Shown here piece by piece: positions 26,213-45,329 of a stretch of 64,000 nucleotides of DNA; position 1 is the first letter of the stretch; every line of letters begins with the position of its first letter. The stretch covers positions 162,475 through 226,474 of the forward strand of contig NZ_JARJHU010000003.1 in NCBI RefSeq assembly GCF_029269825.1, in the 5' to 3' direction. The DNA comes from Pedobacter sp. JY14-1 (GTDB taxonomy: Bacteria; Bacteroidota; Bacteroidia; Sphingobacteriales; Sphingobacteriaceae). The translations under genes and the position numbers were made by a program. The notes beneath the pieces are model-generated. The model was not told the origin of the DNA. It was given only the letters and a program-made list of their open reading frames with translations, and did not search any database.

Positions 26213-27352
26213 ATGCGATTTCAACTTAGCGAAGAACAGCTACTCATACGTCAGGCTGCCAGAGACTTTGCCCAGCAGGAGCTCAGGCCGGGCGTCATTG
26301 AACGCGACGAACATCAGAAATTTCCGGCCGAGCAGGTAAGAAAGCTTGGAGAACTTGGCTTCCTCGGCATGATGGTGGCACCTGAATACAATGGCGGCGG
26401 GCTTGACACCCTGTCTTATGTCCTGGTAATGGAAGAGCTCTCTAAAATAGACGCATCTGCGTCAGTGGTCGTCTCCGTCAACAATTCGCTGGTCTGTTAC
26501 GGACTCGAGAAATATGGGAGCCCGGAACAGAAAGAGAAATACCTGAAGCCCCTCGCGGCGGGCACACAGATCGGTGCCTTCTGCCTTTCGGAACCCGAGG
26601 CGGGTTCCGACGCTACGTCGCAGCATACTTCTGCTACGGATATGGGAGACTATTACCTCCTCAACGGAACAAAGAACTGGATCACCAATGGAAGCACCGC
26701 CTCCACTTATCTCGTCATCGCCCAGACCCACAGGGAACTGGGCCACAAAGGCATCAATGTCTTTATCGTGGAAAAGGGGATGGAAGGCTTTACCGTAGGA
26801 CCTAAGGAAAATAAAATGGGTATCCGTGGTTCCGATACCCATTCCCTGATGTTCAGCGATGTAAAGGTGCCCAGGCAGAACCGTATCGGCGAAGATGGCT
26901 TCGGGTTCAGGTTCGCGATGAAAACCCTCGAAGGCGGCCGTATCGGCATTGCAGCCCAAGCCCTGGGCATTGCTGCCGGAGCTTACGAACTCGCACTTGC
27001 TTATGCCAGGGAACGCAGATCTTTTGACAAACCCATTGCGGACCACCAGGCCATTGCCTTCAAGCTTGCTGACATGGCCACTCAGATCGAAGCTGCCCGT
27101 TTACTGGTTTATAAAGCCGCATGGCTCAAAGACCAGGGGCAGCCTTACACCCTCGCAGGTTCTATGGCCAAACTATACGCTTCCAGGGTAGCGATGGAAG
27201 TGACAACCGAAGCCGTTCAGATCCACGGAGGATACGGCTATGTGAGAGAATACCATGTTGAGCGCCTGATGCGCGATGCCAAAATTACGCAGATATACGA
27301 GGGGACCTCTGAGATACAAAAGCTGGTCATTTCCCGGGAAGTCCTGAGGTAG
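26213..27352 (+). CDS. Acyl-CoA dehydrogenase
   Basis: FAD enzyme of fatty-acid or branched-chain acyl-CoA oxidation, 379 residues. The three family segments are clear: an N-terminal helical domain (EEQLLIRQAARDFAQQEL), the middle beta domain with CLSEPEAGSDA and NGTKNWITNGS, and the C-terminal helices with RRSFDKPIADHQAI and the catalytic-base region QIHGGYGYVREYHVERLMRDAKITQIYEGTSEIQ. The E in YEGTSE is the likely catalytic Glu of short-chain type enzymes. The exact substrate chain length cannot be told. It stands alone; a strong inverted repeat lies downstream. Confidence 0.94.
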   Translation: MRFQLSEEQLLIRQAARDFAQQELRPGVIERDEHQKFPAEQVRKLGELGFLGMMVAPEYNGGGLDTLSYVLVMEELSKIDASASVVVSVNNSLVCYGLEKYGSPEQKEKYLKPLAAGTQIGAFCLSEPEAGSDATSQHTSATDMGDYYLLNGTKNWITNGSTASTYLVIAQTHRELGHKGINVFIVEKGMEGFTVGPKENKMGIRGSDTHSLMFSDVKVPRQNRIGEDGFGFRFAMKTLEGGRIGIAAQALGIAAGAYELALAYARERRSFDKPIADHQAIAFKLADMATQIEAARLLVYKAAWLKDQGQPYTLAGSMAKLYASRVAMEVTTEAVQIHGGYGYVREYHVERLMRDAKITQIYEGTSEIQKLVISREVLR

Positions 27353-27398
27353 TACTGAGACTGACTTCCGGCTGTACTTAATTGCTACTCCCTCCATG

Positions 27399-27463
27399 TT
27401 GAGTCCATATTGAGTCCACGTTGAGTCCACGTTTTTACACATAAAACGTGGACTCAACGTGGA
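27399..27463. repeat. 11-bp tandem array joined to a 20-bp perfect inverted repeat
   Basis: TTGAGTCCA occurs three times with an 11-bp period (27399, 27410, 27421). The last copies form the left arm of an inverted repeat, 27416-27435, exactly complementary to 27443-27462 with a 7-base loop TACACAT; G-U pairs could extend it. The inverse TGGACTCAA is in the right arm. It sits between the acyl-CoA dehydrogenase stop and the rimP promoter. No T run follows, so it is not a typical terminator. Confidence 0.85.
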
Positions 27464-27548
27464 TTTGTCTTCCTCTGAAGACGGAGTCAGGTCAGCCGCA
27501 GAACAGGCCCTAATCGATACAGGGCAAAACGGATGAGAACATGAGGAT

Positions 27549-27585: not shown

Positions 27586-27622
27586 AACAGAAAGAGGGGG
27601 CAATAGTCCCCTCTTTTCTGTT
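27586..27622 (+). promoter_or_regulatory. Leader hairpin of rimP operon, possible attenuator
   Basis: AACAGAAAGAGGGG (27586-27599) pairs with CCCCTCTTTTCTGTT (27608-27622) with one bulged T. The inner GAGGGG/CCCCTC stem followed by TTTTCTGTT resembles an intrinsic terminator, yet it lies only eight bases after the -7 box and 14 before the rimP ATG. Confidence 0.55.
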
Positions 27623-27636
27623 AAATCAGATCGGGT

Positions 27637-28101
27637 ATGCAGGTAGAAAACAGAGTAAAAGAACTGGTTGAAGAAAAGATCGCGGACCGGCCGGAATTGT
27701 TTCTGGTCGATGTTAAGATGCTCCCGGGCAATAAGCTGGTGATCCATGTGGATGGAGATCAGGGGATTAATATTCAGGATTGTGCGGCCATCAGCAGGCA
27801 TGTGGGCTTTCATCTGGAAGAAGAAAATGTGATCGAAAAAGCATATAACCTGGAGGTTTCCTCTCCGGGCATCGGGGAACCGCTGAAGCTGAAACGTCAG
27901 TATGACAAGAATGTTGGGCGGGAACTGGGCCTGAAGCTGGCCGACGGCACGCAAAAGGAAGGGGAATTACTGGAGGTCAGTGAAGAAGGCATCCGCATAG
28001 CGGCTAAGATAAAGGAAAAAGGAAAGAAGGCTACGGTGGCCGAAACAGCCATCGCTTTTAAAGATATAACAGAAACAAAGGTTTTAATTTCATTTAAATA
28101 A
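27637..28101 (+). CDS. rimP: Ribosome maturation factor RimP
   Basis: Needed for 30S subunit maturation. The 154-residue protein has the N-terminal alpha/beta domain (VDVKMLPGNKLVIHVDGDQGINIQDCAAISRHV) with the EVSSPGIGEPL motif, and the C-terminal SH3-like domain. It precedes nusA by one base, the near-universal rimP-nusA-infB arrangement that supports the call. Confidence 0.93.
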   Translation: MQVENRVKELVEEKIADRPELFLVDVKMLPGNKLVIHVDGDQGINIQDCAAISRHVGFHLEEENVIEKAYNLEVSSPGIGEPLKLKRQYDKNVGRELGLKLADGTQKEGELLEVSEEGIRIAAKIKEKGKKATVAETAIAFKDITETKVLISFK

Positions 28102-45265: not shown

Positions 45266-45282
45266 TAATTCCTTAGGATTAT

Positions 45283-45318
45283 AAAAAAAGCGGGCCTTGC
45301 GAAAGGCCCGCTTTTTTT
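45283..45318 (+). terminator. Strong intrinsic terminator after ompA
   Basis: GCGGGCCTT (45290-45298) and AAGGCCCGC (45303-45311) form a 9-bp stem with a 4-base loop, flanked by seven A and seven T. Confidence 0.92.
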
Positions 45319-45329
45319 ATGTGGTCTTT

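Follow-up and report, generated by a model that had tools for sequence, protein, structure and literature searches.

Miniature inverted-repeat transposable elements (MITEs) and palindromes of the enterobacterial repetitive intergenic consensus (ERIC) type are non-coding, imperfect palindromes dispersed between genes, while direct-repeat operators of the PhoB/OmpR type present units spaced by about 11 bp on one side of the DNA helix. In the systems formed by repetitive extragenic palindromes (REPs, REPINs) and their Y1 transposases (RAYTs), short palindromes are dispersed outside of genes, a matching palindrome lies beside a dedicated gene, and the palindrome sequence co-varies with the associated protein. 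For one mainly Bacteroidetes subclass of Y1 transposases (2.6), the relevant passages of a published study describe flanking secondary structures of an atypical kind, which recur at other places in the genome (PMC6006769). Here, we describe an element found at positions 27,399 to 27,463 of a 64,000-nucleotide stretch of the Pedobacter sp. JY14-1 genome (in the following, the window), in which an 11-bp tandem array runs into an imperfect palindrome, together with a family of element-associated proteins (EAPs), most of whose genes examined carry 11-bp arrays in their leaders. From sequence comparisons, we consider it probable, if by no great measure, that the window feature is a solo site copy for an array-binding protein and belongs to a mobile gene-plus-leader system, which would resemble REP/RAYT systems without their transposase.

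The unit TTGAGTCCA occurs three times on the forward strand at a spacing of exactly 11 bp, as a first-pass annotation of the sequence had noted, and a fourth time inverted within the 3' arm of the palindrome; these four occurrences compare with 0.68 expected in the window, and no shuffle in 100 contained four or more. The same annotation had described a perfect inverted repeat with a 7-base loop, which is accurate except for the stem, whose length is 21 bp rather than 20 bp. Its arms are 100% complementary, and none of the other inverted repeats in the window's list of 14, which covers arms up to 60 bp apart, has a perfect pair of this length; its predicted RNA fold of -41.1 kcal/mol lies far below that of shuffled sequences (-16.4, sd 3.0; z -8.3). 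Rfam has no match at gathering threshold within the window. Judged by eye against its sister copies, the element is wider than 27399-27463, with an array start at about 27393 and a degenerate outer right arm reaching to about 27492. Its parts are the following:

27393..27433, + strand: clean arm that bears the units, a tandem array of TCCACGTTGAG in 3.7 copies (Tandem Repeats Finder, period 11; units start at 27399, 27410 and 27421)
27415..27435, + strand: 5' arm of the 21-bp perfect inverted repeat (inverted-repeat search)
27436..27442, + strand: 7-nt loop (inverted-repeat search)
27443..27463, + strand: 3' arm of the perfect inverted repeat, with the inverted fourth unit at 27449-27457
27464..27492, + strand: probable degenerate outer 3' arm in the same 11-bp register (by eye, from the comparison of five copies)

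A search for further copies in the genome and its relatives, as the first-pass annotation had proposed, uncovered a dispersed family that is present in several genera. BLAST of the own genome yields five separate copies, all intergenic, which by eye have the 11-bp units and the centre in common and extend outward as a degenerate palindrome:

27399-27463 region of the window, + strand: window copy
C8:748780-748852: between a tandem gene pair
C5:487997-488071: between divergent genes
C1:641847-641921: between tandem genes, antisense to both
C3:25630-25706: between divergent genes

The gene contexts in this list follow our reading of the open reading frames (ORFs). Beyond this genome, DNA matches to the window element occur in nine of 99 genomes searched (own included), all nine of the same genus. 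When two adjacent units were sought as a pattern that tolerates one mismatch, 38 of 145 Pedobacter genomes matched, 22 of them at least three times and with a maximum of 39 matches per genome; as the reversed control pattern also gives 10 matches in 9/145 genomes, genomes with a single match may reflect chance. The exact pattern retrieves 86 stretches from 84,980 species genomes, mainly from Pedobacter, Sphingobacterium, Parapedobacter and Mesonia, but also from Leeuwenhoekiella, Pustulibacterium and Pararcticibacter; three matches labelled Desulfuromusa, Candidatus Colicola and Neobacillus look like chance or mis-binned contigs and were left out of this range. The following covers 80 of the 86 stretches; in 18 of these 80 contexts, a neighbour is undetermined. 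By eye, the elements are typically imperfect palindromes of about 100-190 bp, with one arm a clean 11-bp tandem and the other degenerate. They lie within an ORF of at least 100 aa in 3/80 loci and outside in 77/80, including 20 between divergent ORFs.

Clustering the ORFs around these 80 loci revealed one protein family, the EAPs, encoded just downstream of the element in 11 loci, where the matched units lie about 120-225 bp upstream of the start codon. In the own genome, the C5 copy lies just upstream of such a gene (EAP1, 239 aa). EAPs are mostly 240-290 aa long and have a strongly basic N-terminus (mean net charge +9.5 over the first 60 aa). Since the 11-bp phasing defines the element family and accompanies a basic protein family, binding of a protein to the phased array, which the first-pass annotation had suggested, appears likely. 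We found no convincing match in Pfam and NCBIfam for seven EAPs scanned, in PHROGs for one, in PADLOC for three, and none among PDB sequences with the EAP profile. An AlphaFold2 model of one EAP (L097), built from 11 sequences, has a mean predicted local distance difference test score (pLDDT) of 78, with a low-confidence N-terminus, helices within residues 38-88 and β-strands within 126-239. Its fold matches are middling, mostly to immunoglobulin (Ig)-like or C2-like β-sandwiches and mainly over residues from about 115 on (best Z 6.2); two Foldseek matches have an E-value below 0.001, both to a C2 domain with template modelling (TM) scores of at most 0.41, and a viral structure library likewise gave middling matches. 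Given these matches and the low-confidence N-terminus, we claim neither a fold nor a function for EAP. A tblastn search of phage and plasmid collections with EAP1, a single query that could miss relatives, returned nothing. Some EAP genes are broken: L165 lies in two pieces with its upstream element retained, and L228 has two internal stops.

In Pedobacter, 82 of 145 genomes have a match to the EAP profile; with a broader profile, matches appear in 39 of 395 genomes drawn from the class and in 29 of the 196 genera sampled. EAPs are present in 35/38 genomes with the unit pattern (20/22 with at least three matches) and in 47/107 of the others, a co-occurrence with a Fisher p of 9e-8 when the relatedness of the genomes is ignored.

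To avoid circularity, we assessed the upstream regions of EAP genes that had been fetched by protein alone. From 79 EAP hits, we used the 64 that were nearly full-length, had 250 nt or more of upstream sequence free of N runs, and remained once near-duplicates were taken out; 12 of these lay in loci fetched through the element and were removed, which left 52, made up of the profile-search loci and places hand-picked from its list with multi-copy genomes first. Within 280 nt upstream of these genes, a lag-11 array is found in 39/52, a strong hairpin in 30/52 and either in 46/52, compared with 2/73, 5/73 and 5/73 upstream of other genes. Some EAP genes have an array without a strong hairpin. Where there is one, its centre lies at a median of 114.5 nt upstream of the start codon, and the cleaner arm is the gene-distal one in 28 of 32 hairpins (opposite in one, even in three; 32 of the 35 hairpins with a score of at least 10 were counted, those with short arms being left out). 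Among 29 homologues from the class-wide search, 18 have lag 11 as the strongest of the ten lags compared, and eight exceed the threshold at this lag; in controls, it is best in 11/73. These loci are the top places in a longer list that spans 39 genomes, and they include one Pedobacter locus (L336) and two from other genera of its family (L325, L326). A possible -7 promoter box (TAnnTTTG) follows the array in 2/49 cases, which is uninformative.

The unit itself varies by EAP lineage (AGTCCAC, AGTCCGC, AGTGCGC, AGTACGC, AGTCCAA and others), and distances between the proteins are correlated with those between their units (Mantel r 0.249, p<=0.0002, n=33). For this comparison and for the following one, we used 33 of the 35 hairpins with a score of at least 10, leaving out two within 80 nt of the start. 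Their inner stems are 86.5% Watson-Crick paired, a percentage that is inflated because the hairpins were chosen for having a stem, and changes on both sides occur at all 18 positions; with the register slid, 23-30% are paired, and with the arms re-dealt 32.1% (sd 3.2, max 45.1). As slid registers also show both-side changes at 14-17 positions, the weight rests on the paired percentage and on the number of pair types (71 vs 40-51 in slid registers). The clearest instance is the own genome with its two EAPs: EAP1 is matched by solo copies of the TGAGTCCAC type, and EAP2 at C3:325147, which carries TGAGTACGC/TGAGTCCGC units (TGAGTMCGC type), by a distinct set of two solo palindromes of its own type at C3:253910 and C8:314607.

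What points to mobility is the extent of homology between close duplicates of EAP genes within a genome, which share the gene and its leader (203-219 bp in four pairs examined) and have mostly unrelated flanks, so that the leader and gene together look like a mobile unit. For most pairs, the left end of homology lies about 200-220 bp before the start codon; the right end falls between a point just before the stop codon and about 30 bp past it (L257/L258, L225/L246 and pairs among five copies in G123), and it agrees when the seven copies of G123 and G012 are aligned. Identities over leader plus gene are 90.5% over 1.1 kb, 95.6% over 1.0 kb and 87-96% over about 1.4 kb or more; the pair L253/L254 is 96% identical over 1.0 kb, with ends outside the comparison. 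According to the first-pass annotation, the absence of any other copy and of conservation would have made the window feature a chance local duplication; further copies exist in this genome and in relatives, although its own site is lineage-specific as far as these comparisons tell: within the roughly 400 bp that precede rimP, the presumed downstream gene, perfect stems longer than 12 bp are absent from all 23 best-matching relatives. In that comparison, the row for the own genome was read in another register and carries no information. At a solo site in P. caeni, five genomes have the element, and in the two genomes aligned outside its clade the site is short and empty; no target-site duplication was seen in this comparison, in which the flanking genes are only about 76-79% alike. 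Across the occupied sites, the unit arm is 95% identical and the other arm 69%, compared with 91% for the adjacent gene end and 55-56% for the intergenic flanks. At this one site, the drift of one arm next to a conserved one suggests selection or homogenization acting on the tandem units and not on perfect pairing.

We propose that the window feature is a gene-less copy of a dispersed element whose gene-linked version is the leader of an EAP gene. EAP most likely binds in a cooperative manner to the 11-bp units, which follow each other at intervals of one helical turn; at gene-linked copies, this binding would control its own expression. The leader and gene would disperse as a mobile unit of about 1.0-1.5 kb, and EAP would extend its action in trans to copies that consist of the leader alone, the window element among them. 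Three steps of this model are conjectural: the binding of the array by EAP, EAP as the cause of the dispersal, and an effect of solo copies on the genes beside them. If the mobility is real, the element would be a selfish one, with an agent that differs from the transposases known so far, and a parallel to REP/RAYT built from other parts.

Several observations weigh against this proposal. Binding and movement are inferred, not observed. The left ends differ somewhat among the seven copies of G123 and G012, three of which (L239, L240, L242) have common upstream flanks; at its right end, the leader-gene unit has no palindrome that we noticed, and inspection of the duplicates by eye revealed no target-site duplication. 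The libraries and fold searches gave neither a transposase or nuclease family nor a confident fold match for EAP, so the agent of mobility could be something else. Three of the 38 unit-pattern genomes lack a detectable EAP (G119, G145, G033), six of the 52 protein-fetched EAP genes have neither array nor hairpin, and the array signal is weaker in the 29 class-search homologues, only eight of which exceed the lag-11 threshold. Finally, the P. caeni solo site was inherited vertically in five genomes, which means that movement is infrequent there.

A broader relationship emerges with DUF6266 (PF19781), which has 24 matches in the own genome. When 20 of these were assessed, six had an upstream 11-bp array; among the other eleven lags, only lag 22, a multiple of 11, gave any (two), and none of 45 controls passed at any lag tested. 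DUF6266 proteins are likewise strongly basic over their N-terminal 60 aa (net charge +8.4), and in a profile comparison with EAP (hhalign Prob 90.9; E 1.1e-6, a value for a single comparison), homology is supported over 65 aa at the N-terminus. The alignment is confined to this part, and PF19781 itself does not match the seven EAPs scanned; the two groups thus have a homologous basic N-terminus and, in some genes, upstream 11-bp arrays in common, but differ in that the Pfam model misses the EAPs. Tentatively, and aware that it may well not hold, we suggest that EAP and DUF6266 form one large, undescribed superfamily of mobile genes in the class Bacteroidia, many with a phased-array leader that would be bound by the shared basic N-terminus, and that these proteins could drive the dispersal of leader-gene units and leader-only copies without known transposase or nuclease folds. 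Either way, a dispersed DNA element that the tools used here do not name is now tied to a protein superfamily of obscure function, which gains a hypothesis in return, namely the sequence-specific binding of 11-bp-phased arrays. In the open-licence literature searched, which does not extend to subscription papers and preprints, we found neither a mention of DUF6266 nor a prior description of these elements. In the own genome, DUF6266 is expanded to about 20 genes (e.g. L296-L303), several with upstream 11-bp arrays. Some DUF6266 genes have different upstream repeats, such as the tandem GGGATGACGGAACTG units in L314, and both L314 and L318 are preceded by a further, distinct inverted sequence, GTCATTGCGAGAATGCG... 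to ...CTCGCAATGACG.

Among the alternatives, a purely regulatory system fares best, and we regard it as possible but rather unlikely. EAP would then be an array-binding transcription factor or nucleoid protein, the solo arrays its regulon and the EAP duplicates ordinary paralogs, with nothing mobile. The basic N-terminus of EAP, the position of the copies outside ORFs of at least 100 aa (77/80, 20 of them between divergent ORFs) and the conservation of the unit arm at the orthologous solo site (95% vs 55-56% in the flanks) would suit a regulator. Independently of this reading, the arrays resemble PhoB/OmpR-type operators in that units spaced by 11 bp would face one side of the helix, but they merge into long palindromes, their units change between EAP lineages, and EAP matches no regulator family in the libraries searched. 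Ordinary paralogy sits poorly with duplicates whose homology covers leader and gene, ending near the stop codon and mostly about 200-220 bp before the start. Likewise, the absence of a comparable stem at the window site in 23 relatives, the short and empty P. caeni site in two genomes outside its clade, and the lack of a common pathway among the neighbours of the own-genome elements (as far as their presumed gene names tell) speak against a regulon. Should a regulator nevertheless be the whole story, it would have an unusual genome-wide family of binding sites, whose sequence changes with its protein.

It is less probable still, and in our view improbable, that the hairpin acts as RNA in a transcribed leader, as an attenuator or a protein-binding RNA hairpin, and that the solo copies are RNA elements. 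An A-form RNA helix has 11 bp per turn, matching the period of the array; the stem folds strongly as RNA; and the median hairpin centre, 114.5 nt upstream of the start codon, would suit a leader. In 89 elements, G-T oppositions (471, 0.66 of expected) and A-C oppositions (481, 0.65) are equally common relative to expectation, so that there is no strand-specific preference for wobble, which argues against selection for an RNA hairpin; these are 89 of 115 array-bearing elements, 26 without a clear stem having been left out. Moreover, one arm drifts while the other is kept, some EAP genes have arrays without a strong hairpin, and Rfam has no match in the window.

That the element is a REP or REPIN moved by a Y1 (RAYT) transposase is very improbable. 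The likeness is real as far as anatomy goes: here, too, imperfect palindromes are dispersed between genes, a dedicated gene lies beside a cognate palindrome, and solo copies are found elsewhere, and the Y1 subclass 2.6 with its atypical flanking structures would offer a precedent in the phylum (passages of PMC6006769). The protein, though, is unlike RAYT, and so we keep 'works like' apart from 'is a'. Y1_Tnp (PF01797) is absent from 12 of 13 element-bearing Pedobacter genomes tested, including the own genome, whereas 6 of the 7 that lack the unit pattern have it (20 genomes in all). On these grounds we rejected an identity with REP/RAYT, which, divergent Y1 proteins aside, is contradicted for the own genome; the earlier suggestion of a recurring mobile or REP-like element thus holds for the recurrence, with five own copies and several Bacteroidota genera, but not for a REP in the strict sense. 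Further differences are the tandem 11-bp arms and their length, which are unlike the REPs described in the passages of PMC6006769 and PMC3733652, palindromes of about 100-190 bp, and an EAP without a recognized domain. These two texts and a 2025 REP survey (PMC12306157) mention Bacteroidota, but none of the three names Pedobacter, and their relevant passages give no 11-bp unit. GTAG/CGTC motifs at the hairpin foot were not noticed by eye in the five own copies, for which no systematic test was made. The Y1 transposases occur in G001, G003, G005, G011, G027 and G041, all without the TGAGTCCAC unit pattern, and in one of 13 genomes with it. Among the seven genomes without the pattern, G001, G003, G012 and G027 have EAP genes, so that an exclusion of Y1, if real, concerns the unit pattern and not EAP.

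With MITEs and ERIC-type sequences, the element shares its nature as a non-coding, imperfect palindrome dispersed between genes. At least one copy (L050) has perfect outer inverted repeats. The element differs from them in its internal 11-bp tandem structure and its relation, as a leader, to one gene family; no parent transposon with a known transposase was found, and target-site duplications were not seen either. Searches of Pfam, NCBIfam, PHROGs and PADLOC matched the associated gene to no transposase, although an unrecognized type is conceivable. The window feature is a member of a dispersed family, which we could not file under any known kind.

The window copy lies in a 284-bp gap between two genes on the same strand:

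26213..27352, + strand: upstream neighbour (ORF call), presumably an acyl-CoA dehydrogenase gene (acdA), judging by its protein sequence
27637..28101, + strand: downstream neighbour (ORF call), which we take from its protein sequence to be rimP, followed by what we take to be nusA and infB

Its position downstream of one gene and upstream of another would fit an ordinary terminator between these two genes or a local duplication that arose by chance, but this reading, the least credible of all, is contradicted by the five copies (two between divergent genes and one antisense to both neighbours), by the presence of the family in several genera and by shuffles that never reach the observed unit count or fold; an intrinsic terminator was also rejected because the long T-run lies at the loop and not after the stem.

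Two further hairpins were observed in the window. One, AAAGAGGGG...CCCCTCTTT at 27591-27616, lies directly upstream of rimP, and similar hairpins occur in the same region of the relatives L274, L277, L285, L286, L290 and L291. The other, an A/T-flanked, 18-bp perfect stem with a 4-nt loop at 45281-45320, is probably an ordinary terminator.
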